This document shows, in pieces, positions 151-35,831 of a stretch of 64,000 nt of DNA. The notes under the pieces are model-generated. The model did not search any database. It worked only from the letters and a program-made list of their open reading frames with translations, and was not told where the DNA came from. The stretch's first letter is position 1; every line of letters begins with the position of its first letter. The position numbers and the translations under genes are program-made. Location of the stretch: contig NZ_RJVR01000317.1 in assembly GCF_003999195.1 (NCBI RefSeq), positions 1 through 64,000 of the forward strand, read 5' to 3'. The DNA is from Streptomyces soli. GTDB taxonomy: Bacteria; Actinomycetota; Actinomycetes; Streptomycetales; Streptomycetaceae.

Positions 151-215
151 CCCACCACCACCCGGGCCGCCCACCCCACCAGGTGGGCGGCCCGGCCCAC
201 ACCGAGAGGACACCC

Positions 216-557
216 ATGGCCACCGAACCCGACACCGATCCCAAGCCCGAACCCAAGCTCACTCCATGCCCCGACTGCGCGGTCCGCCCCGGCCGCCTCC
301 ACCTCCACGGCTGCGACGTCGCCCGCTGCGCCGACACCGGCCTGCAGCGCCTCGGCTGCGGCCACGGCGGCATCCGCTGCAACACCGTCTGGACCGGCCT
401 GTGGCCCGGCGACGCCGAGTGCTTCGAGTACGGCTTCCTCATCAAGCCCGGCCCCGACGCCAGCCCCGACCTCGAACCCCTCCCCGACATCAACCGCCTC
501 TACATGGAGTGCGACTGGGACCCCGCCCAACAGCGCATGGTCCGCCGCACCCTCTGA
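216..557 (+). CDS. Small Cys/His-rich protein, plasmid/phage-type hypothetical
   Basis: The 113-residue product starts at ATG 216, chosen because GAGAGGA lies 5 nt upstream. An upstream in-frame GTG at 183 has no such site. After an acidic Pro-rich start, the protein has a CPDC pair near residue 16 followed by HLHGC and a further DVARC cysteine. This spacing suggests a zinc-binding knuckle. The rest is Trp/Gly-rich and ends in an NRLY...WDP stretch. I recall similar proteins as frequent hypothetical genes in Streptomyces prophages and integrative plasmids, but no function is established. It sits 40 bp before another small gene and is probably co-transcribed with it. Confidence 0.6.
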   Translation: MATEPDTDPKPEPKLTPCPDCAVRPGRLHLHGCDVARCADTGLQRLGCGHGGIRCNTVWTGLWPGDAECFEYGFLIKPGPDASPDLEPLPDINRLYMECDWDPAQQRMVRRTL

Positions 558-597
558 CCCACCCACCGACCGGCAGACACGAAACGAGGACAAGACG

Positions 598-840
598 ATG
601 GCGAAGCTGGGCGAACTGAGCATCGAGCAGCTGCTCGACGGCGCCGACAAGGACACGGCCTACCTGGTCGAGCACCTGGACAAGCTGGCGCAGGCGCGCG
701 GGACCAACCCCGACGACATCGAGGAGGTCATCACCCGCGCCTACACGACGCAGATCCGCAGCCAGTTGATCGTGGCCCAGAGCCGACTACGCGAGCAGCA
801 CCAGGCCGAGCCGATCGTCCCGCCGGCCGAGCAGCAGTGA
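598..840 (+). CDS. Small helical hypothetical protein
   Basis: This is an 80-residue acidic protein with start ATG 598, preceded by ACGAGGACA as ribosome-binding site. It is predicted from composition to be mostly alpha-helical, with regularly spaced Leu/Ile, no Cys and no hydrophobic membrane segment. The C-terminus is rich in Gln, Glu and Pro. I do not recognise a family. The 40-bp gap to the preceding Cys-rich gene and the shared orientation suggest one operon of an accessory element. The convergent FUSC exporter gene ends only 33 bp downstream, with no obvious terminator in between. Confidence 0.5.
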   Translation: MAKLGELSIEQLLDGADKDTAYLVEHLDKLAQARGTNPDDIEEVITRAYTTQIRSQLIVAQSRLREQHQAEPIVPPAEQQ

Positions 841-872
841 CAACGTGCTGTCCTCCCCGTCATGACGGCTGG

Positions 873-2132
873 TCATCGTTGGGGTAGCGGGATCCGGTCC
901 GGCTGCGGATGGATGGACTGCCGGTGCGGGCCATGCTCGGGGTCGAGCTCGCGCAGGATCCGGTGCGCCTCGTCGAGCAGGGTGCCGTAGAGCGGCCAAA
1001 GCGTCGCGGGGGTGTCGGGCCCCGGGGTGAGGGCACGGGCGGCCTCGGCGTGCCGTTCGTGCGCCCAGTCGATCGCCTCGCACAGCGCCCTGACCGGCTC
1101 CTCCAGGTCGGCTCGGCCGGTGTGCACCCGGCCGAAGGCCTCCAGGCAGTCCCCGGTGCGGGCCAGCAGGTGCCCGAGCGGCAGCAGGACCTCCCGCCGA
1201 CCGGACCGGCCGTCCGCCCCGGACCCCTCGCCCTCCTCCGCTTCCTCCGATGGCGGGCCGGGCAGGACCCGGTCGCCGGCCGCCAGGTCGTACAGCCCGC
1301 GGGCCATCGCCTGCACCTGGTCGCAGACATGGCTGAGGCAGAGCACCGCCTCCACCAACGGGGTCGCGGTGATCGCTCGCTTGAGCCGGCGCGGGTTGAG
1401 CCGTACCCCCTCGGCGGCGTCGCCCACCTCGGACCTGGCTAGGTCCAGTTCGGCCGCCGCCCGGTGCGACTGCGAGAGCCAGTCCTGGGCCTGTTCCGCG
1501 GTCCACTCGCCGGCCAGCCCGGTCGCCATCGAGCGTACGGTCGTGGCCAGCGCGTCGCTGGCGGACCGGACGCTGCGACCCGCCCGCCGCAGGTGGTTCG
1601 GGGAGACCAGCAGGTTCACCGCGATGCCCACCCCCGCCCCGATCAGGGTGTCCAGGAACCGGCTCGTGCCGTACGACGCGCCGGAGCCGACCACCAGCAG
1701 CACGGTGGTGGGGACCTCGTGCGCCTGGGCGCCGAGTCGGAGCAGCCGGCCCGCGGTCAGGCAGGTCCCGACCGCGCCGCCGACGGTGAGCCAGTTCACG
1801 CCGAACTGCTGGAAGAACAGCAGGGCGACCGCCACCCCGATCAGCACGCCGGCGATCTGCCGGCCGGCGTGCCGCAGGGTGCCGTAGATGGTCAGCTGGA
1901 CGGTGAACAGCGCGGTCAGTGGGGCCAGTACCGGGTGGTGGTCGGAGCCGAGCAGCCAGGAGGCGAGTTGCCAGGAGAGCGCGCATGCCACGGTGACCTT
2001 GGCGGTCTGGGCGGTCGGCCTTCCGATGGTGCGCAGGTAACGCCAGGGGTGCCGCAGCACGGCGGTGAGACGGCGGAGCAGTTCGTTCGGGGTGAGGGTC
2101 CGTTGTTCGCGCAGGTGATCCTTGGTGGACAT
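873..2132 (-). CDS. FUSC-family (aromatic acid exporter-like) membrane protein
   Basis: The product has 419 residues. An N-terminal block of about six hydrophobic segments (roughly residues 45-180) contains the pattern seen in FUSC/ArAE family exporters: short helices with a Gly-rich turn and a conserved Pro-Asn-His-Leu after the last helix. A long, soluble, helical C-terminal half follows. Members of this family export aromatic acids or unknown small molecules across the cytoplasmic membrane. I chose ATG 2132 over an upstream in-frame ATG at 2165 because the residues before it are Arg/Gly-rich and unlike a membrane protein start. The substrate cannot be read from the sequence, and the neighbours give no hint. 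Confidence 0.7.
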   Translation of the reverse strand: MSTKDHLREQRTLTPNELLRRLTAVLRHPWRYLRTIGRPTAQTAKVTVACALSWQLASWLLGSDHHPVLAPLTALFTVQLTIYGTLRHAGRQIAGVLIGVAVALLFFQQFGVNWLTVGGAVGTCLTAGRLLRLGAQAHEVPTTVLLVVGSGASYGTSRFLDTLIGAGVGIAVNLLVSPNHLRRAGRSVRSASDALATTVRSMATGLAGEWTAEQAQDWLSQSHRAAAELDLARSEVGDAAEGVRLNPRRLKRAITATPLVEAVLCLSHVCDQVQAMARGLYDLAAGDRVLPGPPSEEAEEGEGSGADGRSGRREVLLPLGHLLARTGDCLEAFGRVHTGRADLEEPVRALCEAIDWAHERHAEAARALTPGPDTPATLWPLYGTLLDEAHRILRELDPEHGPHRQSIHPQPDRIPLPQR

Positions 2133-2764
2133 CCCTGGTCGTCTGCCCCGGCACGGTGAGGCCATTCGAACATGAGTTCAGCATATCGTCGGTCATGGTT
2201 GTTTTGGGCCGGTATCAGCCAGTGAAAGTCTCCGCGGCCATTGGCGTAGCAAATATTCCGCTTCTGGGGTCGTCGCCCAGCCCGGGCTTCACCTCCCACG
2301 ACGCAGTCGCCCGGATGGTGGGCGTCAGCTCCGCGCGCCGCGGGCGCCCTGGGAGGCCTCCGCGAGAAACTCGCCCGCCGACCGGCGTACCCGTCGTCGC
2401 CGACTTTGCGGGTGCCGATTAATCATCCGTCCTGCTCGTGTGCCACGGACGCTTGAGGTATCCAGCACTAGGAATCGATGACCGGGGTATGCGTGGGGGC
2501 TATGCTTCGATGGACGTCCCGGACCCCGGCGTGGCAAGCGCGGTTGTAGTGCAGGTGCCTGTGGGGAGCGGACGATTCGTCCGACCGCCTCGGGCACTAC
2601 CTTCGAGGCGAAGCCGGTTTTCGTTCACAGCCCTGCGCGGGTTGCCGGACCGGTGTGCTTCGCCTGACCTGTCCAGGCGTCCGACCGCAGGGGATGCGTG
2701 CCAGGCGGGACCGGGAAGCCGGCCCGCTGGCGCTGCACCAGGTGGTCACAAGAACTGAGGCGCT

Positions 2765-3178
2765 ATGCCTGTTCTGCTCAGCTTGAACCTCTACCGGCAC
2801 GACCGAGGAAACCACACGACGATCACCCTGGCGGGTGAGCTCGACATGGACACGGCGCCACCGGTGTGCGTGATGATCGAGGACTGTCTGCGAGGCGGAA
2901 TCCGCACCATCGACATCGACCTGACCCTTTTGACCTTCTGCGATGTCAGCGGCCTCAATACCTTCCTGGCCGCTGCCGAGCGCACGGCCACCGCCGGGGG
3001 ATTGCTGTGTCTGCACCATCCGTGTCCGATGCTGACCCGTCTCCTGGACCTCACCGGCACCGGCTTCCTCGTGCACGGCCAGCCCCGGGAAGCTGAGCTT
3101 CCTCCCCTCACGCACGGCCCCGGCCGTCGTGTCCCAAGCGCTGGCCTCGTGAGCACGGCCCGCGGTGGTCGCGGGTGA
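2765..3178 (+). CDS. STAS-domain anti-anti-sigma factor
   Basis: The protein has 137 residues and starts at ATG 2765 behind GAGG. It has the fold pattern of anti-sigma factor antagonists: a GELDMDTAP-type start of the first strand-helix unit, and a FCDVSGLNTF segment (about residues 59-68) whose Ser is the usual phosphorylation site of SpoIIAA/RsbV-like proteins. The tail after residue 110 is basic and low complexity. It overlaps the next gene by 4 nt (GTGA), so the two are translationally coupled. No RsbW-type kinase is visible nearby. The SpoIIE-like phosphatase at 8151 is a possible but unproven partner. Confidence 0.8.
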   Translation: MPVLLSLNLYRHDRGNHTTITLAGELDMDTAPPVCVMIEDCLRGGIRTIDIDLTLLTFCDVSGLNTFLAAAERTATAGGLLCLHHPCPMLTRLLDLTGTGFLVHGQPREAELPPLTHGPGRRVPSAGLVSTARGGRG

Positions 3179-3906
3179 TCAGTGACCGCATGGTCGGGGT
3201 CCTGCGTCTGCTGCAGCTCGACGACTGGTCCGACGGGGTCGCGGACGTCACCGCGGCGGGCGCCGAAGCGTTGGGCGTGGACGGCCTCGCCGTCTCCCTG
3301 GTCACCGAGGGCGACCTGACCGAGCTCCTGTGGTGCTCCGACGCCACCACGCGCCACTTCGAGGACCTGCAGCTCACCCTCGGAGAGGGGCCGGGCCTCG
3401 ACGCGGCACGCACCGGCACCATGGTGTCGGTGCCGGACCTGGCCACCGTCCGCATGGCCCGCTGGCCCGCCCTGGCGATGGAGGCCCCCGATCTGTCGGC
3501 CCGCGCGGTGTTCTGCTTCCCGATGGGCATCGGCGCCATCAGGGTCGGCGTCCTGACTGCGGTGCGCCGCACCCCGGGTGCGCTGACCGCCCAGCAGGCC
3601 GACGACGCTGTGCTGCTGGCCGACTCGCTCACCGCCCGCTGCCTGGGCAGCGGTGAACCACGCCTGGACGGGCCTTCCCCCGCCGACTCCCCGCACACCC
3701 TGCAGCACGCGGTGATCCACCAGGCGACGGGCATGGTGAGCGTCCAGCTCGCCCTGCCCCTGCCCCAAGCTCTGCTGCGGCTGCGGGCCCACGCCTACAG
3801 CAGCGGGCATTCCATCACCGACATCTCGCAGGACGTGGTGGACCGCCGGCTGCGGCTGGACCCCAACGGCAACGGCACCCCTCCGCCCACCGTAGACAAG
3901 GACTGA
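3175..3906 (+). CDS. GAF-ANTAR domain protein
   Basis: The protein has 243 residues and starts at the GTG that overlaps the STAS stop codon. Residues about 15-150 form a GAF-type sensory domain. Residues about 180-235 form an ANTAR domain, an RNA-binding helical bundle, with the typical AVIHQATGMVSVQL helix start. ANTAR proteins usually bind paired hairpins in nascent RNA and prevent termination. No receiver domain is present, so the input is presumably a ligand or protein sensed by GAF. It is followed after only 5 bp by a second GAF-ANTAR gene, so the two may act as a pair with the STAS protein. Confidence 0.8.
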   Translation: MISDRMVGVLRLLQLDDWSDGVADVTAAGAEALGVDGLAVSLVTEGDLTELLWCSDATTRHFEDLQLTLGEGPGLDAARTGTMVSVPDLATVRMARWPALAMEAPDLSARAVFCFPMGIGAIRVGVLTAVRRTPGALTAQQADDAVLLADSLTARCLGSGEPRLDGPSPADSPHTLQHAVIHQATGMVSVQLALPLPQALLRLRAHAYSSGHSITDISQDVVDRRLRLDPNGNGTPPPTVDKD

Positions 3907-3911
3907 TCGCC

Positions 3912-4661
3912 ATGACCCGCGAGCAACGCATGACCGAGGTCTTCGTGGAAGTCGCCGACTCCCTGATCGACGACTTCGACCTCATCGACTTCCTTCAGCA
4001 GCTCTCGGTGCGCTGCATGGAACTCCTGGACGTGGCGGCGGTCGGCGTGCTGCTGGCCGACCAGCACGACATCCTGCAGACCATGGCAGCCTCCGACGAG
4101 CACACCCGGCTGCTGGAGCTCTTCGCCCTGCAGCACGACCAGGGCCCGTGCGTGGACTGCTACAAGAGCGGAGCCGCCCGCACCAACATCAACCTCACCG
4201 ACCCGAAGGTCACCGCCGCCTGGCCCGCGTTCGCCGCCCGCGCCGCCGAGACCGGATTCGTGGCCACCAACACGCTGCCGCTGCGGCTGCGCGGCCGGGT
4301 CATCGGCGTCCTGGCCCTGTTCCAAAGCGACCCCGACCCACTGCGCGACCAGGACATCACCTTGGCCCAGGCCCTGGCGGACGTGGCCACCATCGCCATC
4401 CTCCAGCAGCGCACGCTGGCCCACAGCGAGCTGGAACGCGGCCAACTCCAATACGCGCTGACCAGCCGCATCGTCCTGGAACAGGCCAAGGGCATCCTCG
4501 CGGAACGCTGGCACGTCTCAGTCGACGAGGCGTTCGCCGCCTTCCGCTCCTACGCCCGCGCCCACCACCACCAGCTCGGCCAGCTGGCCCGCGAAATCGC
4601 CAACGGCACGTTCGACACCACCCAGATCCCGCACCAGGCCACCGCGCCACCGCGGCCCTGA
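3912..4661 (+). CDS. GAF-ANTAR domain protein, second copy
   Basis: The protein has 249 residues with start ATG 3912. The N-terminal two thirds are a GAF domain with recognisable DQGPCVDCY and GVLALF segments. Residues about 180-232 are an ANTAR domain with the ALTSRIVLEQAKGILAERW signature, which is closer to consensus than in the upstream copy. Two Cys in the GAF pocket (GPCVDC) could serve redox or metal sensing, but this is inference. It is the third gene of a STAS, GAF-ANTAR, GAF-ANTAR operon with gaps of -4 and 5 bp. The target RNAs are unknown; no obvious paired hairpins occur in the immediate leader. Confidence 0.85.
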   Translation: MTREQRMTEVFVEVADSLIDDFDLIDFLQQLSVRCMELLDVAAVGVLLADQHDILQTMAASDEHTRLLELFALQHDQGPCVDCYKSGAARTNINLTDPKVTAAWPAFAARAAETGFVATNTLPLRLRGRVIGVLALFQSDPDPLRDQDITLAQALADVATIAILQQRTLAHSELERGQLQYALTSRIVLEQAKGILAERWHVSVDEAFAAFRSYARAHHHQLGQLAREIANGTFDTTQIPHQATAPPRP

Positions 4662-4667
4662 CCCGCT

Positions 4668-5712
<1,045 letters not shown>

Positions 5713-5756
5713 GCGTCGTCTGATCCACGCCGCCATCGGTGTCCTTCTGATGGTGA

Positions 5757-5814
5757 GGCGCGCGGGATGAGCCAGCAGGAGCGCATTCCACCTGCTGGTT
5801 TGCTCCCGCGCGCC
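5757..5814. repeat. Long two-part stem-loop between transposon genes
   Basis: The outer arms of 11 bp (5757-5767 and 5804-5814) are perfect complements. An inner pair of 8-bp arms (5772-5779 and 5791-5798) stacks inside them. The structure lies between the DUF5372-like and helix-turn-helix genes. It could be a terminator, a recombinase binding site or a transposon-internal regulatory element; there is no T-run. Confidence 0.6.
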
Positions 5815-5887
5815 CCGTAAGCAGTCTTGGCGGCAGCCGGTGTCGGCGCGAACCTGGTGACAGGGATTCCGGCAGGGAGGCGACCTG

Positions 5888-6376
5888 ATGGCGACGGCGG
5901 CAGCAGACCCGAAGGTGGCGGCGTTGGTGGCGACCAGGTCGCTGAACCCGCACCCGGAGAAGGTGACCGATGCCGTGTTCCTGGCCTCGCGGTTCTGCGA
6001 CCCCAGAGACGTCGTGCAGGTCAAGTACGAGATGGTGCGCCGGGTCCGCATCGACGGGGTGCCGGTCACCGAAGCCGCGAGAGCGTTCGGTTACTGCCGG
6101 CAGGCATTCTATGAGGTCGCCGCCGCCCTGGACACCGGCGGGCCGAGCGCCCTGGCTGCTGGCAAGCCCGGGCCGAAGGGCCCGCGCAAGCTCACCGGCC
6201 CGGTGATGGACCGCGTCGAGGACTGGCTGGCCGCCGAGCCGTCCCTGAAATCCCGCGACCTGGCGGCCAGGGTTCAAGAGGAGTTCGGGTTCCCGGTCCA
6301 TCCGCGTTCCCTCGAGCGGGCCCTGGCCCGGCGGCGTGAGCCGAGCGATCCCGAGGAGCCCATAACCCGTTCCTGA
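5888..6376 (+). CDS. Helix-turn-helix protein of a mobile unit
   Basis: The protein has 162 residues and starts at ATG 5888 behind GGGAGG. Residues about 40-90 contain a YEMVRRV...VTEAARAFGY-RQAFYE stretch, a classic Tc/IS630-like helix-turn-helix. A second winged region (about 105-145) ends in VHPRSLERALARR. Proteins of this type accompany a small partner and a recombinase or DUF5372 gene in actinobacterial mobile units. There is no catalytic domain, so it is a DNA-binding accessory or regulator. The partner gene follows but has lost its start. The gene itself appears complete. No active recombinase is present in the unit, so the element seems immobile. Confidence 0.65.
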   Translation: MATAAADPKVAALVATRSLNPHPEKVTDAVFLASRFCDPRDVVQVKYEMVRRVRIDGVPVTEAARAFGYCRQAFYEVAAALDTGGPSALAAGKPGPKGPRKLTGPVMDRVEDWLAAEPSLKSRDLAARVQEEFGFPVHPRSLERALARRREPSDPEEPITRS

Positions 6377-6731
6377 AGCGGCAGTTGCCGCAGGCGTCGA
6401 GCAGTACGAGCGGCTCCGTGACGCGGCCGGTGGCCCGCAGCACGGGCTCGCCGTGCTGGTAGCCAAGGGCATGGCCGCGTTCCTGCGCGTCGCCGCCGCC
6501 CTGGTCCCAGCCGCTCCGCGGCGACTTCCGCCGCCGTCCGCGCCGTCGGACCTGCCGGGGCCGGTGGAGCCGGAGATCATCCGCGTCTGGTCCCGGATGG
6601 TTCTCGCGCATGCCCTTGGCCCGACACGTCCCCCGTCCAGTGCGACGGTACACACCGCGATCATGATGAAGTGGGGCAGTGAGCGGCACGAGATTGCGTC
6701 CGAAGCGCACCATCGCGGTACCGGCGTGTAG
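6366..6731 (+). pseudogene. Start-less companion gene of the mobile unit
   Basis: In the frame following a TAA at 6363 there is an open stretch reading E-A-A-V-A-A-G-V-E-Q-Y-E-R-L-R and later LAVLVAKGMAAFLRVAA, then EIIRVWSRMVLAHAL. This order (YExLR, a Gly-Leu-Ala-Val-Leu helix, a Pro-rich linker, a final helix) matches the small protein usually encoded after the helix-turn-helix gene in such units. No ATG or GTG precedes the conserved part; the first ATG lies inside it at 6480. It also overlaps the upstream gene by 11 nt, suggesting a frameshift or deletion. I read it as decayed. Confidence 0.45.
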
Positions 6732-6849
6732 GCCGAATTTCTTCCGATCATGGAAATGACAGCGGCTAGCGCGAGCAACTGGCCACCAACCATTGGAATC
6801 GCGGGCCCCGCCCGGCATGTATGGCGGCAGAACGGCTAGACGTCCTGGT

Positions 6850-7230
6850 ATGGCGGACCCCCTCGTATCCCGGAAAGTCTCCGATCTGGTTGGCGTGCGA
6901 CCGCAGGTCGACGTCGAGCGGGCGCACGATGCGCTGGAGGCGGTGGCGGCGGCGCCCCAGACGCAGACGCAGTTCTCCCGAGGTGCTTTGACCGGCTACG
7001 TGTGGGCGTTGGGCCGCGGCACGTCCGCTCCGGTCACCGGCTCTCACCGTCACGGCACTCCGAACCTGGGGCAACTCACGGGGGAGATCGACGCCAGCGT
7101 GATGCAGTTGGCGGACCAGACCCTGCGCACGGTCCCGCGTGACTATGTCCAGGGGGTCCACGATGCCTTGGCCTGGGTCTGCGGATACAGCGATGACCAG
7201 CCCTCCGGAGGCTTCACTTCGCCCGCCTGA
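6850..7230 (+). CDS. Hypothetical protein
   Basis: This is a 126-residue protein starting at ATG 6850. It has no membrane segment and no signal peptide. The middle is rich in Gln, Thr and Ala. The C-terminus has the segment YVQGVHDALAWVCGYSDDQP, which resembles the end of several uncharacterised Streptomyces proteins. I cannot name a family. There is no clear ribosome-binding site, but a TAGACG sequence 8 nt upstream could be the -10 box of a leaderless transcript. It lies between transposon remnants and a Pro-rich membrane protein, so accessory-element origin is likely. Confidence 0.4.
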   Translation: MADPLVSRKVSDLVGVRPQVDVERAHDALEAVAAAPQTQTQFSRGALTGYVWALGRGTSAPVTGSHRHGTPNLGQLTGEIDASVMQLADQTLRTVPRDYVQGVHDALAWVCGYSDDQPSGGFTSPA

Positions 7231-7464
7231 CAAAGGTGCGACGCTCACCGCGTTGAGCCGTAAGACTCCGTAGTGCCTGAGTCGGCGTCGTTTGTGCTGC
7301 TGACCATCGTTCCGGCGCTTGTGGAGGTCCTCACCGCGCGGCTGGAACAGGCTTGCACGGTCTAGCCGCGCGCCAAGGACGTCCGGCGCGCGGCGCGCCT
7401 GCATGGCGGCGGCCAGGGCGTCGACGAGGCGGGGCTGCTGGGTGCGCATGCGTCCATGACGCAG

Positions 7465-7773
7465 CTACGGCCGCCACGGTCCCGGAGGCTGTTGCGGCGG
7501 GTATCCGTATCCGGGCGGCTGCTGCTGCCCATACGGCGGCTGCGGCGGCCCGTACTGGCCCTGCGGCGGGTAGGCCGTGGGCGGGTACTGCTGCGGCGGG
7601 TAGGGCTGCTGCTGCGGGTAGCTCTGGATCACGGTCTTGCGGCCCATGGCGGCGGCGATCGGCCAGCCCGTGATGGCCCAGATCCCGCACGTGAGGATCG
7701 TCAGGACGATGTGTAGGCCGTGGTTGGCGCCGCGCTTGACGACCTGTCTCTGCGGCTGTGGTGGTTGGTACAT
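7465..7773 (-). CDS. Small membrane protein with Pro/Gln/Tyr-rich tail
   Basis: The protein has 102 residues, with start ATG 7773 preceded closely by a GGGGG stretch. Residues about 15-40 form a hydrophobic segment with the pattern GLHIVLTILTCGIWAITGW, which fits one or two short membrane passes. It is followed by a long disordered tail of PQQ, QYP and GYP repeats. Proteins of this shape are common in Streptomyces prophages and integrative elements and carry the same membrane motif; their role is unknown. The gene is transcribed away from the phosphatase at 8151. An upstream in-frame start at 7827 would add 18 basic residues and seems less likely. Confidence 0.55.
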   Translation of the reverse strand: MYQPPQPQRQVVKRGANHGLHIVLTILTCGIWAITGWPIAAAMGRKTVIQSYPQQQPYPPQQYPPTAYPPQGQYGPPQPPYGQQQPPGYGYPPQQPPGPWRP

Positions 7774-7865
7774 GGCCCCCGGGCGGTTCGCGGTGATCAG
7801 TCGCCCCAGGCTGCCCGAGCGGCGCACGCGTGGGAAGGGGCGTGACGGCGTCGTGACGCGGCGAA

Positions 7866-7895
7866 GCCCCGCCGCTGGGGGGGATGCGGCGGGGC
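7866..7895. terminator. Perfect 10-bp hairpin, candidate terminator
   Basis: Arms at 7866-7875 and 7886-7895 are perfect complements with a 10-nt G-rich loop. It lies in the 377-bp space between two divergently transcribed genes. It may end a transcript coming from the left, or it could be a regulatory structure. The rest of this gap (about 8040-8140) is unusually AT-rich for this genome and probably holds the promoter of the phosphatase gene. Confidence 0.5.
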
Positions 7896-8150
7896 CTCAG
7901 GTCGAGTGTGCCTCAGCGGGTGCTGCCGCGCGCGCCCGAGGCGTGTGCCACGGGCACAGCACATCGTCCGAGAGAGCGGCGATAACCGTCATCACGCAGT
8001 GCAACCCCCATGATCCATAGCTAGTCGCACGTGAAGCCCGTCACTTGAGAGTTGGGTCATATCAACCTCATTCAAGCATTAGGCATAATCTAGTCAGTTA
8101 TGTCTGCAAACTGGCGTCTACGAGCCGTCTCCACCTAAAGGACAAAAACA

Positions 8151-9515
8151 TTGGGGCAAGTCAGGGAGCCCAGCGCAAGCCGCAGCACAACCGTTCGGTC
8201 GCCCGGGTGGGTGATCGCCGCCCCCAAGGGGCTCTGCCGGCGGATGCAGGAGGAGGGCCGGCCGTTCGAGCTGGCTCTCCTCACTCCGCTGCTGGTGATC
8301 GGGCTGATCGCGGTGGCGGCCCTGCTCACCCCCAACCTGCAGTTCTACCGGCTGCTCGGGGCCGCGCCGGCGCTGGCCGCCGCCATGTTCTCCATGGCCG
8401 GCACGCTGGGCATCGGACTGCTTGCCCTGACGGTCAGCGTCGCCCTCTCCGCCGCCAACCACGACCTGGGCCGGACACCGGCCAATTTCACCCTGCTCGC
8501 GATCACGGCCATCACCCTGGCCGCCACCTACGCAAGCCGGGTACGCCAGCACCGGGAGCACACCCTCGCCCAGGTCCGCGCCGTGGCGGAGACCGCGCAG
8601 CAGGTGCTGCTGCGCCCGCCCCCGCAGCACCTCGCGCACATCGACGTCGAGGTGCTCTACCAGGCCGCCGCCGCGCAGGCCCGCATCGGCGGCGACTTCT
8701 ACGACGCGATGCAGACCCCGCACGGGGTACGGCTGATCATCGGCGACGTGCGCGGCAAGGGACTTCCCGCCGTCGAAGCCGCCTCGGTCATCCTCAGCAC
8801 GTTCCGGGTACACGTGCATGCCGCGCCCGACCTGCCGTCCCTGGCACGCCAGCTGGAGACCGTCATGAGCCAGTACTGCCTGAACGTCCCCGACGGCGCG
8901 GTGGAGCGTTTCGTCACCGTCGTGCTGGTCGAGATCCCCGCCGGGGAACCCATCGCCCGCGTGCTCAACTGCGGGCACCCCGCGCCATTGCTGCTGCACC
9001 GCGGCGAAGTGCGCGAGGTGGAACCCAGCGCGCCGTCACCACCGATCAACATGGCCGACCTCCTCGGCGACCACTACCAGGTGGACACCATTCCCTTCGC
9101 CACCGGCGACCGCCTGCTGCTGTTCACCGACGGCGTCAGCGAGACCCGCGACCGCACCGGGACCTTCTACCCCCTCACCCAGCGCATCCGCCCATGGGCC
9201 TCAGCCCCGCCCCGCCAGCTCCTCGACCACCTCCACCACGACCTGCGCTCCTACGTCCACGGCACCCGCGACGACGACCTCGCCGCCCTGGCCGCCCACC
9301 GCGTCACCCCCTGCGACCGGAAACCGGCGGAAGTCGATCGCGCCGTCCCCCGACAGGTGGAGGGGTGGGTGGTGACCACCCAGAACCGGACGACGGGGCA
9401 GAACCCTGGTCGGGACCGACAGAGGGGCGGCCGCGGCGAGGGCATCGAGCGATGCGATTTTTCAGAAATCGCCGCTGCCAGGTGTGACACTTCGGGGCCC
9501 GGCGGCGCTGAATAG
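8151..9515 (+). CDS. Membrane PP2C/SpoIIE-family protein phosphatase
   Basis: The product has 454 residues. Three or four hydrophobic segments (about residues 40-125) anchor it in the membrane. A SpoIIE/RsbU-type PP2C domain follows from about residue 165 to 385, with ARIGGDFYDA, GDVRGKG, NCGHPAPLL and FTDGVSE segments carrying the metal-binding Asp residues. Such enzymes dephosphorylate STAS anti-anti-sigma factors. The STAS gene at 2765 is a possible substrate in the same region. The TTG start at 8151 is supported by AAAGGAC about 8 nt upstream. The last 65 residues after the domain are Arg/Gly-rich and unlike the family, perhaps read-through after a lost stop. A perfect hairpin lies downstream. 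Confidence 0.8.
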   Translation: MGQVREPSASRSTTVRSPGWVIAAPKGLCRRMQEEGRPFELALLTPLLVIGLIAVAALLTPNLQFYRLLGAAPALAAAMFSMAGTLGIGLLALTVSVALSAANHDLGRTPANFTLLAITAITLAATYASRVRQHREHTLAQVRAVAETAQQVLLRPPPQHLAHIDVEVLYQAAAAQARIGGDFYDAMQTPHGVRLIIGDVRGKGLPAVEAASVILSTFRVHVHAAPDLPSLARQLETVMSQYCLNVPDGAVERFVTVVLVEIPAGEPIARVLNCGHPAPLLLHRGEVREVEPSAPSPPINMADLLGDHYQVDTIPFATGDRLLLFTDGVSETRDRTGTFYPLTQRIRPWASAPPRQLLDHLHHDLRSYVHGTRDDDLAALAAHRVTPCDRKPAEVDRAVPRQVEGWVVTTQNRTTGQNPGRDRQRGGRGEGIERCDFSEIAAARCDTSGPGGAE

Positions 9516-9651
9516 ATGGACGCGCTGCTCAGGCAGTGACCGTCCTTCGCCCCGGCCCCCCGACCGTGGGCGAGTTTCTGTCCCGGTCTGGCGTTCCCGT
9601 GGGGGGAAATGCCGGTCGGGGCGGGGCCGCATCCTGGTGCGGCACATGGCA

Positions 9652-9694
9652 GCCCCGGTCGTCCGCCTCCCCCCCCGTGGCGGACGACCGGGGC
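9652..9694. terminator. Strong 16-bp stem terminator after the phosphatase gene
   Basis: Arms at 9652-9667 and 9679-9694 are perfect 16-bp complements around an 11-nt C-rich loop. It lies 137 bp downstream of the PP2C stop codon in a gap (9516-9838) where I see no gene. There is no long T-run, as is usual for Streptomyces intrinsic terminators. Confidence 0.7.
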
Positions 9695-9838
9695 TTCCCG
9701 CTCGCAACCTGCTGCCCGGCCGGCGGTGCGCCCGGCGGTCTGTACGCTGACCGCGTTACTCTCCGTGTGCCTGATGGCCGGGGCGGGGGAAGTTGGGCCT
9801 GCGGCCCGTCGGGCTGACTGGTCCGAATCGAGGGTGGT

Positions 9839-10012
9839 ATGCGGGTGCTGGTGGCGGAGTGGTACCGGTTGGACACGGTAATCGGCCGTGGCGGGATGGG
9901 CGAGGCCTGGAAGTGGGTGCCGTGCCCGCACGCCTGCGGCTACGTCGGCCAGCCGGAGATCCGCCCGAGCGTCCTGTACGGACTGGTCCCGCAGCTCAGC
10001 CCGAGCCGCTAA
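9839..10012 (+). pseudogene. N-terminal stub of a Ser/Thr protein kinase
   Basis: From ATG 9839 a 57-codon frame runs to TAA 10010. Residues 8-24 read WYRLDTVIGRGGMGEAW, the first strand and glycine-rich loop (GxGxxG) of actinobacterial PknB-type kinases. The rest of the kinase is missing. The next 30 residues are unrelated and include a Cys-x-His-x-Cys sequence. No ATP-binding Lys or catalytic Asp can exist. It looks like the 5' end of a kinase gene left after a deletion or used as a crossover point. A terminator-like hairpin follows at 10053. Confidence 0.6.
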
Positions 10013-10052
10013 CCTGTGCTCAGCGGCCATGGACGGCCCGCGTAGACGGCCG

Positions 10053-10085
10053 AAGGCCCCGCCCCCTGATGGGGGGTGGGGCCTT
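10053..10085 (+). terminator. GC-rich stem followed by TTT, intrinsic terminator
   Basis: Arms 10053-10066 and 10071-10085 pair over about 13 bp with one G-T wobble and a short loop. The right arm ends in CCTTT. It follows the kinase stub by 40 bp. The gap up to the tRNA remnant at 10321 shows no other feature. Confidence 0.65.
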
Positions 10086-10320
10086 TGTCGCCCCCAAAGG
10101 ATCTGCGCTGCTCACCGCTTCGACGACCGCAGCTGACCTCGGCCGACTCTCCCGCCCTCGTTCCCACGGGTCAGCGGGGGCCTCCATGGGAACGTCATGG
10201 GAACGGAAGGCCGGGTAAAGGTAGGGAACGATCCAACGGGGCCGGAAGGCCGGATCGCTCTGACCAGCCAGAACGGTGAAATCGGGTGAGGATCATCACA
10301 GACAGGGGAGACGCTAGTGG

Positions 10321-10365
10321 CTCTTGTAAAGCGAAGGTCGTCGGTTCGAATCCGACAGGCGGCTC
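10321..10365 (+). tRNA. 3' half of tRNA-Thr(TGT), attachment-site remnant
   Basis: The sequence contains an anticodon loop CTTGTAA (10323-10329, anticodon TGT at 10325-10327), a variable loop, a T arm with GTTCGAATC, and an acceptor strand ending in GGCGGCT. The anticodon stem can pair in 4 of 5 positions with the bases just upstream. The D arm and the 5' acceptor strand are absent: upstream DNA is unrelated. Tyrosine integrases of actinomycete integrative elements commonly recombine in tRNA genes, with the 3' part duplicated at the far end. With an integrase fragment 92 bp downstream, this is best read as an att site, not a working tRNA. Confidence 0.75.
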
Positions 10366-10456
10366 TCTCCCTGAACAGTCGGAACGCCCCGGACCATGAT
10401 CGGTCCGGGGCGTCTGACACCTACGGATGACATCAACCGGGGCGGTCACCCACGGT

Positions 10457-10666
10457 TCACCCGCGATCGAGGCGGCGCCTGAGCAGCCGGTCCATATGGC
10501 TGATGGCCTCGCGCTGCGTGTCCTGCGCCACGTGGGTGTACGCATCCATGGTGAGGCTGATCTGGCTGTGTCCGAGGATCTCCATCACCACTCGCGGCGC
10601 GACCCCGGCCGTGGCCGGCAGCGTTGCGCAGCCGTGTCGGGCGACAGCAATTGGGTTTACATGCAT
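10457..10666 (-). pseudogene. C-terminal fragment of a tyrosine-type site-specific integrase
   Basis: About 69 residues remain. They carry the catalytic end of a phage-type integrase: an ARHGCATLPATAG segment with the Arg-His box, then the VMEILGHSQISLTMDAYTHV segment that contains the GHS motif and the nucleophilic Tyr of the active site, followed by a basic tail. The first Arg of the catalytic pentad and the DNA-binding N-terminal domains are missing; similarity stops near 10670. The 3' end points toward the tRNA-Thr remnant, the usual arrangement of int next to attP. The fragment cannot function alone. Confidence 0.8.
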
Positions 10667-11198
10667 GCAGTAGTTTGGTCATGGTTGCGCCCCGCTCATG
10701 GGCCATCCGGATGCCAGTGGACGTAGGAGGCGGTGCGGAGATGGTGGTGCCCCCATCCGGCATCGTCGCGCGGCCTGGCAGCGATGGCCTGTGCTCGTCT
10801 CTTCCAGGTGCTGCGGGGAACAGCATCGCCTTACTGCCGGCTCGACCCCGCGGTTGGCGTAGTTCCGGATTCGTCAGGGCCGCAGAGCAGGCCGGCAGTA
10901 CCACGCGCAAGGCGTTCGCAGCCGTTCGTGCTGCCTCGGAAATCGCACTCCCGGTGTGGCCGAGCGTGATCCCGCTGCGGTCATCTGCGCAACGAGTTCG
11001 GCCGTCCCGCCTCGGCGCGTGACTCCCCATCCCCTCGCATGTGACTCAGAGAGCGACCGTGACGACCGACGACCAAGCACCGATCCCCTGCCTCACCCTG
11101 ACGGCCGTCCGGTGAGAGTCGGGGTCGGTACGCAACGCGGAGATGATCCGGAAAGCACCCAGTCATCACATGTGACGGTCGCCCAACGCACTGGGCCC

Positions 11199-12539
11199 AT
11201 GCGGGCGACGACGGCCTCCCCCAGCTCACTGGACTTGGCACTGCTCTACTGGCTGTGCTGCGGCGTGTTCAGCCGTCCGAGGGTTGCCACATCCGTATCG
11301 GCGGCCGGCATCGTCCTTCTGGTCCTTGTAGGAGCCAGCGCGCCCAACCTCAACACCCTCGTGGCGCCCGTCCCGTTGCCCCTGCTGAGCCCTATGCCGG
11401 CGGTCGCCTCCATCCCATTGACCATTGCCTCCATCGCACTGTCGTGTCTGGGGCTGGCGGGCCTGCTGGAGGCGCACAGCCGAGGCTGGCACCCCAGCCC
11501 CCGAAAGCTGTTCGCCGTCGGCGCCGTCACGGTGGCCGTCGTCACCAGCCTGACACCGGTCGGCTCCTCCGATACAGCAAGCTACGCCGCCTATGGCCGG
11601 ATCGCCGCCCTTGGCGGCGACCCGTACGTGACCACACCCGCGCAACTCGGCGGGGCCTACCTACATCTGGTCAGCCCCTCCTGGCTCCAGACGCCCTCGG
11701 TGTACGGGCCGGTCGCGACCTGGATGCAATCGGCTGCCGCCCACATCGGCGGCGGTCGGCCCTGGCTGACCATCTGGCTGCTGATGCTCGCCAACGGTGC
11801 GGTGTTTCTTGCCACCGGGTACTTCCTGATGCGCACGGCCGGCGACCCGGTCCGCGCCGGCTTGCTGTGGGTCGCCAATCCCCTGCTGGTTATGGTGCTG
11901 GTCGCAGGCGGCCATCTGGACACCGCTGTGGCCGCCCTCGTGGTCTGCGCCGTCCACTACGCCGGCCGCACCACCAGGCCGCGCCACGACCTGATCGTCG
12001 GGCTGCTCATCGGGCTGGCCTGCGGCATCAAGATCAGCGCGGCCCTTCCCGGCCTGGCCCTGATGGTGCCATTGGTGCGCGATCGTGCCTGGGGGCGAGT
12101 CACCCGACAAGCGCTGACCTGGGCTCTGGTCGTTGCCGGTGGTTACGGACCATACGGGCTGCACGCACTCGCCCCACTCTCGGCAGCCTCCCATCTGATC
12201 TCCGTGCCCTCACTGTGGATCCCCTTCCAGCAAGTCAGTCAGACCGCCCTCGGCCAAGCCGCAACCAACACCGCCATCAGCATCATCTGGCCCATCCTGA
12301 CGCTCGCCCTGTTCTGGCTGATCCACCACCGGATCTCCCCACAAACCCCGCTGACCATGACGGCACCGTTCGCGGTCACCCTCGCCTGGATCCTGGCGGC
12401 CCCCTGGTCGATGCCCTGGTACTCAGCCGCCGCCTGGGCCACGGCAGCACTACTGCCTAAATGTCCCCCAGTCCGGTGGCTGATACTGACAACGACCGCC
12501 CTGGCGCTCGTCCACAACAGCGGCGGCCGCGGCTGGTGA
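11199..12539 (+). CDS. GT-C mannosyltransferase-like membrane protein (MptA/MptB type)
   Basis: The protein has 446 residues if ATG 11199 is the start; in-frame GTG 11172 is an alternative, and the frame is open upstream. About ten hydrophobic segments span the whole length. The first periplasmic loop holds GSSDTASYAAYGRIAALGGDPY, with the acidic residue typical of polyprenol-phosphate-mannose-dependent GT-C enzymes such as MptB. Such enzymes add alpha-1,6-mannose to cell-envelope glycans on the outer face of the membrane. The C-terminus ends abruptly in Gly-Arg-Gly-Trp, so the last helices may be lost. It lies just beyond the integrase scar, and codon use looks like the rest of the window. 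Confidence 0.65.
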   Translation: MRATTASPSSLDLALLYWLCCGVFSRPRVATSVSAAGIVLLVLVGASAPNLNTLVAPVPLPLLSPMPAVASIPLTIASIALSCLGLAGLLEAHSRGWHPSPRKLFAVGAVTVAVVTSLTPVGSSDTASYAAYGRIAALGGDPYVTTPAQLGGAYLHLVSPSWLQTPSVYGPVATWMQSAAAHIGGGRPWLTIWLLMLANGAVFLATGYFLMRTAGDPVRAGLLWVANPLLVMVLVAGGHLDTAVAALVVCAVHYAGRTTRPRHDLIVGLLIGLACGIKISAALPGLALMVPLVRDRAWGRVTRQALTWALVVAGGYGPYGLHALAPLSAASHLISVPSLWIPFQQVSQTALGQAATNTAISIIWPILTLALFWLIHHRISPQTPLTMTAPFAVTLAWILAAPWSMPWYSAAAWATAALLPKCPPVRWLILTTTALALVHNSGGRGW

Positions 12540-12978: not shown

Positions 12979-14313
12979 ATGGCCAATGAGCAGCTGAGCC
13001 CACTTGATCTTGCGTTCTGGCATGCGGAGTCGCCGGACCATCCGCTGCATCTGGCTGCGCTGGCGGTGCTGGCTCCTGTGGGTGGGGTGGGGGCGCGGGA
13101 GGTGGCGGAGCTGCTGGCGGGGCGGGCGGCGGGGGTGTCGCGGATGCGGATGAGGGTGCGGGATGTGTGGATGCCGCCGGGTGGGGCGGCGTGGGTGCAG
13201 GACGATCACTTCGAGGTGCGGCGGCATGTGTATCTGCACCGGGATTCGCCGGAGCTGCTGGGTGAGCTGATGGAGCGTCCGCTGCGGCGGGGGCGGCCGC
13301 CGTGGGAGATCCATGTGATCGAGGGGGCGACGGAGGACGCGCCCTTCTCCGTACTGCTGAAGATCCATCACGCGCTGGCCGACGGGCTGCGGGCGGTGTC
13401 GCTGGGGGCGGTGCTGTTCGACGAAAGCCCGAGCCTGTCGCGGCTGACGGCGCCGCGGACGGGGCGGAAGGGTGGCGAGGCGCCGGCGATCCCGGTGCAG
13501 GATCTGTGGTGGCTGGCGGGAGCGGTGCGGTCGCGGGTCGGGGCCGCGGTGGGGGAGGCCGGGCAGGCGCTGGGGATCGGGGTGTCGTTGGCACGGGCGT
13601 CGCTGGGGGCGCGTACGGTGCCGGCGCTGGCGGCGCCGTCCAGCGGGTCGCGGCAGTTGGCGACCGCCGTGCTGGAGCTGGACGCCATCCAGCGGATCCG
13701 CAAGACGGCCGGGGGCACGGTCAACGACGTGCTCATCGCGATGGTGGCCGGCATGCTGCGGCGCTGGATGAGCGAGCGCGGGGAGGACGTGACCCGGGTC
13801 GCGCCCCGCGCGCTGGTGCCGGTGGCCCGGCGCCGCTCCGACGGGCGGCGGGCGGCGGGGAACCAGCTGTCGGGCTACCTGGCGGAGCTGCCGGTGGCGG
13901 AGCCCGACCCGCTGGCGCGGCTGTGCGCCGTACGGAAGGTGATGGACCGTAACAAGGAGGCCGGCCCGGGGCGTGGCGCGGGCGCGGTGGCCCTGCTGAC
14001 CGACTACATGCTGCCGATGGCCAGCCGGCTGGGCGCGCCGCTGGCCGGGCACGCGGTGCGGCTGCTCTTCGACATCCTGGTGACCAGCGTCCCCGTGCCG
14101 GACCTGGGCTTCACGGTGGGCGGCTGCCCGCTGCTGGAGGTGTATCCGCTCGCCCCGCTGGCCCGGGGGCAGTCGCTGGCGGTGGCCATGACCACGTACC
14201 GGGGCCGGGTCCACCTCGGGCTGGTCGGCGACGGCCAGGCCGCCGCTGACCTGGGACGGCTGGCGGAGGCGGCGCACGCCGAGCTGGCGGAGATGGGCGC
14301 AGCGGTTGCCTGA
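12979..14313 (+). CDS. Wax ester synthase/diacylglycerol O-acyltransferase (WS/DGAT)
   Basis: The 444-residue length and domain order fit the bacterial WS/DGAT family. The start MANEQLSPLDLAFW is typical. The catalytic HHxxxDG motif is present as HHALADG at about residues 130-136. The C-terminal half carries the conserved TVNDVLIAMVAG segment and a PxxVP-like loop near the end. The enzyme transfers fatty acyl groups from acyl-CoA to diacylglycerol or fatty alcohols to make storage lipid at the membrane surface. A perfect palindrome upstream suggests control by a repressor not encoded next to it. The next gene on the same strand starts 58 bp downstream with its own ribosome-binding site. Confidence 0.88.
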   Translation: MANEQLSPLDLAFWHAESPDHPLHLAALAVLAPVGGVGAREVAELLAGRAAGVSRMRMRVRDVWMPPGGAAWVQDDHFEVRRHVYLHRDSPELLGELMERPLRRGRPPWEIHVIEGATEDAPFSVLLKIHHALADGLRAVSLGAVLFDESPSLSRLTAPRTGRKGGEAPAIPVQDLWWLAGAVRSRVGAAVGEAGQALGIGVSLARASLGARTVPALAAPSSGSRQLATAVLELDAIQRIRKTAGGTVNDVLIAMVAGMLRRWMSERGEDVTRVAPRALVPVARRRSDGRRAAGNQLSGYLAELPVAEPDPLARLCAVRKVMDRNKEAGPGRGAGAVALLTDYMLPMASRLGAPLAGHAVRLLFDILVTSVPVPDLGFTVGGCPLLEVYPLAPLARGQSLAVAMTTYRGRVHLGLVGDGQAAADLGRLAEAAHAELAEMGAAVA

Positions 14314-14371
14314 GCGGGGCGCCGGGTCAAGGCTGGCCGTAGGGGCCGTACGCACCCTCTGGAGGGTGATC

Positions 14372-15154
14372 ATGGCGGAGATGACCGGATACAGGGACGG
14401 CGTGCCCTGCTGGGTGGACCTGGGCACCCCGGACGTGGGCCGGGCCAAGGACTTCTACGCCGCGCTCTTCGGCTGGGACTACGTCGACACCGGTGAGGAG
14501 AGCGGCCACTACCAACTGGCCATCCTCAAGGGGAAGACGGTCGGCGGGATCATGGAGCAGCAACCCGACTGGCCCGCGCAGAGCGCCTGGATGACGTATC
14601 TGTGGACCGACGACGCCGACGGGACGGCGCAGAAGATCCTGGACGCGGGCGGCGCCCTCCTCATGGAACCGATGGACGTCATGGACCAGGGCCGGATGGC
14701 CATCGCCAACGACCCGGCCGGCGCGATGTTCGGGCTGTGGCAGGGCCGAGGCCACCTGGGCTCGGGCCTGGCGAACGAGCCCGGCGCCTTCACCTGGAAC
14801 GACAACCTCTCGACGGATCCCCTCGCCGCGCGGGAGTTCTACGGACACGTCTTCGGCTACGAGTACGAGGTCGTGGCCGACCCCTCCGACCCGTCGAGCG
14901 AATACGCGATGATCAAAGTCGACGGCCGCCCGGTCGGCGGTATCGCCGGCCAGCCGTCATACATCCCCGCGGGCACCCCCTCGTACTGGAACACCTACTT
15001 CTCGGTGGACGACGCGGACGGGGCGGCGCGCAAGGCTGAACAGGGCGGCGGCGCCGTGGTGGTGCCGGCAGCACCCGCGCCGTACGGGCGGCAGGCCGTG
15101 GTCCGGGACGACTCGGGAGCACTCATGGTGCTGGTCGCGAGTGGCGAGGGCTGA
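14372..15154 (+). CDS. Two-domain VOC (glyoxalase-like) protein
   Basis: The protein has 260 residues, with start ATG 14372 behind GGAGGGTG. It consists of two tandem VOC modules, about residues 8-125 and 135-258, each with the beginning PxWVDLGTPD / FTWNDNLSTD and a Tyr-rich strand (FYAALFGWDY / FYGHVFGYEY). The fold usually binds a metal with His/Glu residues, but the expected His in the first strand of each module is replaced by Val-Asp or Asn-Asp. The protein may therefore be a binding or resistance protein and not an enzyme. Related proteins are often annotated as hydroxylases without proof. It shares strand and direction with the DGAT gene. Confidence 0.75.
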   Translation: MAEMTGYRDGVPCWVDLGTPDVGRAKDFYAALFGWDYVDTGEESGHYQLAILKGKTVGGIMEQQPDWPAQSAWMTYLWTDDADGTAQKILDAGGALLMEPMDVMDQGRMAIANDPAGAMFGLWQGRGHLGSGLANEPGAFTWNDNLSTDPLAAREFYGHVFGYEYEVVADPSDPSSEYAMIKVDGRPVGGIAGQPSYIPAGTPSYWNTYFSVDDADGAARKAEQGGGAVVVPAAPAPYGRQAVVRDDSGALMVLVASGEG

Positions 15155-15232
15155 AGATCACACTTAGCGTCCTTTTCGGCGGCTCTGTGATCAATTCGTA
15201 GCCTCGGTATGCCGCCGGAAGGCAGGTGCGGC

Positions 15233-16297
15233 ATGCCACCACGATGGGCGGGCCCAGTCGCGGCCACCGTTGTTCTGGGTCTGGTCAACGTCGTCCCCAT
15301 GGCCGCTCATGCGGCGGATCGGATCGTCGTACGGCCGGGGGAGTCCATCCAGGCGGCGGTTGACCGGGCGAAACCCGGGGACGTCGTCTCCGTGGAACCC
15401 GGCGTCTACCGGGGCAGCGTCCAGGTGACGGTGCCCCGGTTGACGTTGACGGGCTCCGGGCCGGGGACAGTTATCGCGCCGAGCGCGGCCGGCACCGAGA
15501 ACGCGTGCGCGGTGGCCGGGCATGGCCTCTGCGTCACCGGGACGGCTGATCACGAGGCGAGCGATGTACGGCTGCGGGAGTTCAGCGTCGTCGGCTTCAA
15601 GAAGAACGGCGTCAACGCCACCTGGGCCGACCGCATCGAGGTCCGGCAAGTGACCGCCCGCGACAACGGCCAACAGGGCATCAGTCTGGAGAAGTCCGTA
15701 CACGGCACCTTCCGGAACAATGATTCCGAGAACAACGGCGAGTCGGGCATCCTCCTCGCCAACACCGTCGACAGCGAGGGCGGCGCCCTCGATACCCAGG
15801 GCGCCGTCGTACGGGACAACCGCCTGACCGGCAACCGGGTCGGCGTCGTCCTGCGCCGGGTACGGAACATGGTCGTCGAGAACAACCGGATCACCGACAA
15901 CTGCGGTGGCGTGTTCGTCGTGGGCGACGAAGGCGTCCCCCGGGCGGGCTCGCTCACGGTCCGGGGAAACCTGGTCGCCGAGAACAACAAGTACTGCAAG
16001 CCCAACGGCCGCCTGCCCTTCATCCAGGGCGTCGGCATCCTCCTCACCGGCGCCGAGAACACCCTCGTGACGGGCAACCAGGTGCTCGGCAACGCCGGGA
16101 CCTCGCCCATGTCCGGCGGCGTCGTCCTCTTCCGCAGCAACGTCGGGGTCGCCAACTCCGGCAACACCATCCGCCAGAACATCGTCCAGGGCAACGCCCC
16201 GGCCGACCTGGCCGACCGCGACACCGGCGCCGGCAACACCTTCAGCGGCAACTCCTGCCGCGCCTCCGAACCGACAGGGCGGTGCGCGGCGCTATGA
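15233..16297 (+). CDS. Secreted right-handed parallel beta-helix protein
   Basis: The protein has 354 residues. ATG 15233 is preferred over 15209 because GGAAGG lies 10 nt before it and the product then begins with a good signal peptide: short positive start, hydrophobic core, cleavage near AHAAD (about residue 28). The mature part has a PGESIQAAVDRAKPGDVV segment typical of periplasmic copper-binding/pectate-lyase-like beta helices, then many NN-x-I/V repeats (NDSENNGESGI, VENNRITDN, VRGNLVAENN). Substrate and activity are not evident. The stop overlaps the start of the O-methyltransferase gene (ATGA), so the two are translationally coupled, an odd pairing. Confidence 0.75.
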   Translation: MPPRWAGPVAATVVLGLVNVVPMAAHAADRIVVRPGESIQAAVDRAKPGDVVSVEPGVYRGSVQVTVPRLTLTGSGPGTVIAPSAAGTENACAVAGHGLCVTGTADHEASDVRLREFSVVGFKKNGVNATWADRIEVRQVTARDNGQQGISLEKSVHGTFRNNDSENNGESGILLANTVDSEGGALDTQGAVVRDNRLTGNRVGVVLRRVRNMVVENNRITDNCGGVFVVGDEGVPRAGSLTVRGNLVAENNKYCKPNGRLPFIQGVGILLTGAENTLVTGNQVLGNAGTSPMSGGVVLFRSNVGVANSGNTIRQNIVQGNAPADLADRDTGAGNTFSGNSCRASEPTGRCAAL

Positions 16298-17352
16298 CCG
16301 ATACCGCTGCTCCCCGGCAGGGCGCCCCGGCCGCCGCCGCTCCGGGCGCCCAGGGCGCCATGCGGCTCCGCGAGCTGGTCTTCGGGGCCGCCTGCGCCGC
16401 CGCCGTACGTGCCATCGCCCGGCTCGGCGTCGCCGACGCCCTCGGCGAGGCCCCGGCCACGCCCGACGAGCTGGCCGCCGCCGTGCACACCGAGCCCCGG
16501 CCGCTGGCGCGGCTGCTCCGGGCCCTCTCCTCGTACGGCGTCTTCGAGGAACTGCCCGACGGCCGCTTCGCCCATACGGACATGTCGCGCATGCTCCGCG
16601 TCGACGCCCCCAACAGCCTCCACTACATCGCCCTCTGGTGCACCGAGCCCTGGACCTGGCAGGCCTGGCCCCGACTGGACGAGGCGGTGCGCTCGGGGCG
16701 CAACATCTTCCGCGAGCTGTACGGCAAGGAGTTCTTCGACTACCTCCACGACGACGCCGGGGACAGCGCCCACATCTTCGACCGGGCGATGACCCATTCC
16801 AGCCGCCAGTCGGCCGAGGACATCGCGGAGCTGCTCGACCTGACCGGCGTCGGCGAAGTCGCCGACATCGGCGGCGGCCAGGGCCACGTCCTCGCCGCGC
16901 TCCTCGAACGTCACCCCGGCGTCCGCGGCACCCTCCTCGACCTCCCCAAGGTCGTCGCCGGCGCCGACCCCCGCCTCCGGGACGGCGGCGCCCTGTCCGG
17001 GCGGGTGCGGCTCCTGCCGGGTGACTGCCGGGAGGCGATTCCGGTGCGGGCCGACATGTACATCATCAAGAACATCCTGGAGTGGGACGACGAGAGCACG
17101 CGGTGCACCCTCCGAAACGCCGTGGCGGCGGCCGGGCCGGGTGCGCGGGTCATCGTCATCGAGAACCTTGTCGACGACACGCCGTCGATGCGGTTCACGA
17201 CCTCGATGGACTTGATGCTTCTTCTCAACGTCGGCGGTCAGAAGCACACCCGCGACAGCCTGGGCGGGCTCATGGCCGAGGCCGGCCTTCGGGTCGACGC
17301 CGTCACCCCGGTCAACGCCTACCTCCACGCCTTCCACTCCGTGGTGGGCTGA
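16294..17352 (+). CDS. SAM-dependent O-methyltransferase (plant/TcmN C-terminal type)
   Basis: The protein has 352 residues, starting at the ATG that overlaps the beta-helix stop. Residues about 20-105 form the winged-helix dimerisation domain of small-molecule O-methyltransferases. Residues about 170-340 form the Rossmann methyltransferase with the SAM motif VADIGGGQGHVL, then LLDLPKVV and the IIKNILEWDD motif holding the usual catalytic-base region (here Asn where His is common). The family methylates phenolic hydroxyls of aromatic polyketides and flavonoids. It ends 100 bp from, and converges on, the polyketide operon, so it may tailor that product, but it is a separate transcript. Confidence 0.8.
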   Translation: MTDTAAPRQGAPAAAAPGAQGAMRLRELVFGAACAAAVRAIARLGVADALGEAPATPDELAAAVHTEPRPLARLLRALSSYGVFEELPDGRFAHTDMSRMLRVDAPNSLHYIALWCTEPWTWQAWPRLDEAVRSGRNIFRELYGKEFFDYLHDDAGDSAHIFDRAMTHSSRQSAEDIAELLDLTGVGEVADIGGGQGHVLAALLERHPGVRGTLLDLPKVVAGADPRLRDGGALSGRVRLLPGDCREAIPVRADMYIIKNILEWDDESTRCTLRNAVAAAGPGARVIVIENLVDDTPSMRFTTSMDLMLLLNVGGQKHTRDSLGGLMAEAGLRVDAVTPVNAYLHAFHSVVG

Positions 17353-34681: not shown

Positions 34682-34693
34682 GGCACTACCCCC

Positions 34694-34756: not shown

Positions 34757-34787
34757 GCAAGCAGAAACCCCGGAAGGACCCCCGCCC

Positions 34788-35803: not shown

Positions 35804-35831
35804 GGGTGTCAGGTCCTCTTTCTCTAGCGCT

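Follow-up and report, generated by a model that had tools for sequence, protein, structure and literature searches.

Results

The window, by which we mean the whole stretch of 64,000 bp that was analysed, comprises positions 1-64000 of contig C9 (80,966 bp) in a draft genome of 9.4 Mb and 412 contigs (G000:C9:1-64000). At 10320-10365, on the plus strand, lies the 3' half of a tRNA-Thr(TGT) gene, which runs from the anticodon loop to the 3' end and is identical at 46 of 46 bases to the corresponding part of an intact tRNA-Thr(TGT) gene on contig C113 of the same genome (C113:6018-6092, minus strand). A sequence-only reading of the window had already recognised this half, with a start one base to the right of 10320, and had noted that the 5' half is missing from the window, where ARAGORN indeed detects no complete tRNA. 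Chance is excluded as the origin of an exact match of 46 bases, and a backwards-pattern control for the 43-base core used in the genus search gave 0 matches in all 35 genomes. Nothing beyond a 13-bp match was found within the window when older remnants of the core were sought.

The neighbouring ORF, at 10457-10666 on the minus strand, encodes 69 aa, and its match to PF00589 is limited to positions 132-170 of the 172 in the profile (Pfam, E 7.5e-7). Since relatives reach 380 and 383 aa at full length, this ORF is a fragment, namely the C-terminal stub, now a relic, of an older tyrosine integrase; decayed similarity to integrases of the same type reaches beyond the ORF, to about 10762. As had been described from the letters of the window, the ORF has its end turned towards the tRNA segment, with 92 bp between its stop codon and the end of that segment. 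The interval between the two (10366-10456) is the 3' flank of the tRNA locus and holds a palindrome, CGCCCCGGACC..GGTCCGGGGCG (10386-10413), which is terminator-like and may act as a terminator.

To the left of the tRNA half, Pfam and NCBIfam matches identify an ArAE/FUSC-type membrane protein (873-2165, minus strand), a STAS protein (2765-3178, plus), a first and a second GAF/ANTAR protein (3175-3906 and 3912-4661, both plus), two transposase fragments (5144-5416, minus; 5888-6376, plus) and a SpoIIE-type phosphatase (8151-9515, plus). The STAS, GAF/ANTAR and SpoIIE-phosphatase genes are grouped within 2765-9515 and resemble a stress-signalling set carried as island cargo. The last 281 bp before the tRNA half (10039-10319, plus), which we term the distal arm, contain CGTTCCC at 10159 and GGGAACG at 10188, 10199 and 10224.

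The intact tRNA and a complete integrase lie on another contig

The sequence-only reading had proposed a search of the genome for an intact tRNA-Thr(TGT) with the same segment, and held that the lack of any other copy of the 45-bp segment would count against it. Such a tRNA is present at C113:6018-6092, and the strongest match to the segment besides the window itself is C113:6010-6064 (55 bp, 95%), while the eight that remain in the list are weak, at 22-44 bp and with E values no better than 4.7e-4; strong core copies in this assembly thus number two only. Facing the tRNA 3' end, as in elements whose tyrosine integrases target tRNA genes, is a complete tyrosine integrase of 524 aa (C113:4348-5922; PF00589 and PF14659), and on the 5' side of the tRNA is a 372-aa ORF (C113:6305-7423) which we take to be an MsiK-like ABC ATPase. 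The arrangement on C113 is that of a normal integrase-side junction. Near the integrase, within the presumed island, a serine-recombinase ORF (L009:2983-3966, on C113) has Recombinase and zinc-ribbon domains and no match to the resolvase catalytic domain.

With both strands counted, the 64-kb window has nine copies of the motif GGGAACG. Four of them are at 10159-10224, just left of the core, and another four are found at C113:5874-5939, beside the integrase stop codon. The window and C113:1-20000 each contain a single pair spaced by 11 bp. These repeats tie the left arm of the window to the C113 integrase, and we regard them as putative arm-type integrase sites. The 11-bp-spaced pair is absent from the loci with C113-type integrases of Streptomyces sp. 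JH14, S. triticisoli and G022, which speaks against the feature being general. Rep or Tra families were not found among the ORFs scanned at both ends of the presumed island, which are part of the ORFs of an island whose interior is unassembled.

Two relatives keep the uninterrupted site

Comparison with related strains that lack the island, another step proposed from the sequence alone, proved informative: in G001 and G012 the tRNA site is uninterrupted, and the identical palindrome and a decayed relative of the window stub come immediately after the intact tRNA. Window 10320-10538 is 78-79% identical to these loci (blastn), and the stub protein matches the decayed homologues of G001 and G012 at 75% over 24 aa and 49% over 53 aa. 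When C113 9044-6018 was reversed and joined to window 10366-12000, the joined sequence aligned in one stretch across the tRNA end both to G001 (3294 columns, 81.1%) and to G012 (3016 columns, 82.8%). Because the joined flanks align through the junction in both relatives, we conclude that the right side of the window is the chromosome side of the tRNA locus and that the island lies between C113:6018 and C9:10320. Window 1-10319 has no blastn counterpart at the tRNA-Thr loci of G001 and G012. The earlier suggestion that the accessory genes on the left are the body of an element is supported.

Farther to the right, 28956-50864 is chromosome 3' of tRNA-Thr common to G001 and G012 (blastn, 77-86%), in the expected order save for a segment of about 32.2-39.6 kb (32236-39608) that is inverted relative to both within otherwise matching chromosome. 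From the relic to 28956 there are about 18 kb in the window versus about 15 kb in G001, and the content differs. One stretch that differs from G001, 12979-17352, carries WS/DGAT, glyoxalase, beta-helix and O-methyltransferase genes, all on one strand. The WS/DGAT gene (window 12979) was considered as a marker of the tRNA locus and dismissed, its homologue being present in 5 of 14 genomes and always on another contig or far from tRNA-Thr. Contig C287 (3.3 kb) was likewise set aside as a chromosome flank: it matches the 3' region of G001 and G012, but its position in this genome is not fixed.

The stub and the complete integrase differ in type

The stub corresponds to the C-terminus of an integrase type of 380-383 aa, with 86% over 50 aa to the representative in G051, and the stub region (window 10762-10493) is 59% identical over 90 aligned residues to the integrase of G061. 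The C113 integrase is 31-34% identical to the full-length relatives of the stub, and by this measure the two are different integrases. Outside this genome, nine stub-related loci are listed (L079-L087), five of them within 1.5 kb of a tRNA-Arg(CCT), one each near a tRNA-Val, a tRNA-Thr(TGT) and a tRNA-Ala, and one near no tRNA; in G066, which belongs to another genus, a stub-type open frame of 101 aa lies by tRNA-Thr(TGT). A scan of genome contigs for relatives of the C113 integrase yielded two, both C-terminal fragments adjoining tRNA-Arg(CCT), and the nearest relatives found (JH14 and S. triticisoli) are at tRNA-Arg, not tRNA-Thr. In plasmid and phage collections, the best matches over most of the C113 integrase, among those listed, are about 34% identical. 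In Streptomyces sp. JH14 (L101:2763-8601), an intact tRNA-Arg(CCT) precedes a truncated integrase of the C113 type, then two 3' halves of the tRNA (43/43 bp for the first, 40 of 41 for the second) and finally the end of a stub-type integrase; judged by these similarities, the integrase types stand in the same order as here, at a different tRNA.

The sequence-only reading had offered tandem elements sharing one att site or a deletion of the 5' half, and the first of these suggestions is the one that we retain. A single scar, produced when one element lost the 5' tRNA half together with most of its integrase, would fit the spacing of 92 bp and the correct orientation of the half-tRNA and the stub. 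However, C113 carries both an undamaged tRNA, which has a 5' flank of its own, and a complete integrase; the stub already adjoins an intact tRNA in G001 and G012; and the left arm bears the repeats of the other integrase. We therefore reject the deletion, which we consider scarcely credible. The half-tRNA and the stub are not one scar; the half is most likely the attR of a younger island, and the stub is what is left of an older and apparently different integrase that was already beside the tRNA.

A similar unit elsewhere in G012

The 281-bp arm recurs on contig C37 of G012 (79%), where the 11-bp-spaced pair is kept. Here a unit made of the left arm, the half-tRNA and as much of the relic-side flank as reaches roughly to the stop codon of the stub lies away from the tRNA-Thr gene of G012 (L047:8489-8932), and at about 8932 it is fused to DNA that is located at 2.28-2.29 Mb in G001 (91%). 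The tRNA-Thr locus of G012 itself is uninterrupted, and the relic-side part of the C37 unit is 82% identical to that at G012's own tRNA, so it is no recent copy. The arm minus its last bases and the core is also present on the 2.35-Mb replicon of Streptomyces sp. NBC_01450 (78.5%), again with the 11-bp-spaced pair; that copy (L122:15001-15245) stops just short of the expected core position, and neither a tRNA nor a C113-type integrase was detected in 30 kb. Arm matches were obtained in 7 of the 100 genomes searched, this genome included, and the only long match besides this genome was in G012.

The C37 unit bears on two further explanations of the window. In a draft assembly of 412 contigs, position 10320 might be a chimeric join, but window 10039-10456 (left arm, half-tRNA and right flank) matches C37 in the same order, at 79% over 424 aligned columns, and we regard a chimera as extremely improbable. 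The unit on C37, fused as it is to DNA that is chromosomal in G001, would also suit a chromosomal rearrangement in which window 1-10319 is ordinary chromosome joined by recombination through the tRNA half; against this stand repeats of the kind seen in elements, which occur precisely at the end as well as by the C113 integrase, together with the transposase fragments in the left part of the window, and we believe such a rearrangement to be improbable. C37 might also indicate that stacked junctions can move as a unit, a younger element having taken part of an older relic with it and ended without a tRNA, a suggestion that we put forward as a doubtful one.

Copies of the core across the genus

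The 43-base core was searched for, with at most 3 mismatches, in 35 genomes of the genus including this one. It is present in 26 of the 35, the other nine having no match at that limit, and at least two copies occur in 16 of the 26 core-bearing genomes, with a maximum of five (G047). Fifteen genomes have several copies on one contig, and in 14 of these all copies on that contig are on the same strand. Of the 16 multi-copy genomes, 15 show no sequence difference among their own copies. The exception is G047 (L115, L116), whose five copies are of mixed variants; two of them lie 3.9 Mb from the other three, on the opposite strand.

Full and half tRNAs were counted in 26 genomes picked for having hits, with some known copies (e.g. 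in G013 and G020) left out, which gave 26 intact tRNAs (one per genome) and 29 half copies in 17 genomes, one half in G017 being unchecked upstream. A facing integrase HMM hit lies within 300 bp of 4 of the 29 halves (the window, G017, G018 and G023) versus 6 of the 26 intact tRNAs, and within 1.5 kb of 7 halves versus 10 intact tRNAs, by an HMM that overlooks decayed stubs, the ones in G001 and G012 among them. By this test a facing integrase directly beside a half is a minority pattern, yet the window is not unique.

Since relatives with at least three core copies exist (G004 with four; G011, G009 and G017 with three each; G047 with five) and the interior of the island is unassembled, the array here could be longer: more than one element may lie between C113 and C9, 10320 being the last attR of three or more and the C113 integrase that of another member. 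Against that, this assembly shows just two strong copies of the core, and the outer ends have their GGGAACG repeats in common; we consider a longer array a minor, if real, possibility.

Discussion

We believe that the locus is best explained by heterologous tandem accretion at tRNA-Thr(TGT), in which two elements inserted successively and the separate contigs C113 and C9 are linked by inference; we give this reading a probability of roughly 0.87. What accretion would leave behind is found here, namely a tRNA 3'-end repeat at the distal end with an intact tRNA at the integrase end, a remnant of a second, different element across the repeat (the stub of another integrase type) and relatives with the uninterrupted site. 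First, an older element with one tyrosine integrase would have entered the tRNA 3' end and decayed to a C-terminal stub facing the tRNA, which is the state of G001 and G012. Later, a second element with the different, 524-aa tyrosine integrase would have arrived, its attP recombining with the same tRNA from the anticodon loop onward to the 3' end. This second insertion would keep the complete tRNA on the integrase side (C113) and leave a 46-bp copy of the 3' half at the far side (10320-10365), abutting the old stub.

In all likelihood, then, a younger island lies between the tRNA and the older relic, its far end (attR) being at position 10320 and its distal part being window 1-10319. From synteny and the matching ends, we infer that a single island has C113:1-6017 at one end and C9:1-10319 at the other, on contigs that are unjoined in the draft assembly, and that the C113 integrase made the 10320 junction. 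The two insertions would not be the sole events, as window 10.7-28.9 kb also differs from G001, which points to further change at the locus. Other points that weigh against the reading are the unjoined contigs, the absence of Rep and Tra families from the end ORFs scanned, and the nearest relatives found for the C113 integrase, which are at tRNA-Arg and lack the 11-bp-spaced pair.

The locus is a clear case of one tRNA gene that appears to have been used in turn by two different integrases, with the uninterrupted site kept in relatives, and across the genus tRNA-Thr(TGT) emerges as a recurrent stacking site. For annotators, it is a caution that a half-tRNA next to an integrase stub may stem from separate elements.

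Stacks of this kind have precedents. PMC9513070 describes how, in a Streptomyces population, AICEs and defective AICEs that differ in their integrases accumulated one after another at tRNA-Arg, flanked by tRNA-end repeats and with an old remnant common to all strains; it also gives tRNA-Thr as a site targeted by an AICE and by an ICE. The present locus is alike in its successive, different integrases at one tRNA, its tRNA-end repeats and its old remnant. In contrast, those stacks consist of recognised AICEs at tRNA-Arg, whereas the locus described here is at tRNA-Thr(TGT), with no more than an integrase tail as its remnant, and no conjugation or replication genes were seen among the end ORFs scanned. 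Where PMC3218068 defines an AICE by int, rep and FtsK-like tra on one element, int is present here and rep and tra are lacking among the end ORFs scanned of an island with an unassembled interior. The same source mentions that pSE211-type integrases target tRNA-Thr, and reports the tandem AICEs Sav3708 and Sav3728 at an S. avermitilis tRNA-Arg, whose integrases belong to different sub-families. Our locus resembles that pair in having tandem elements with different integrase sub-families at one tRNA, although there the elements are whole AICEs. Heterologous tandem accretion is already described at Streptomyces tRNA genes, and the present case is a further, well-preserved instance.
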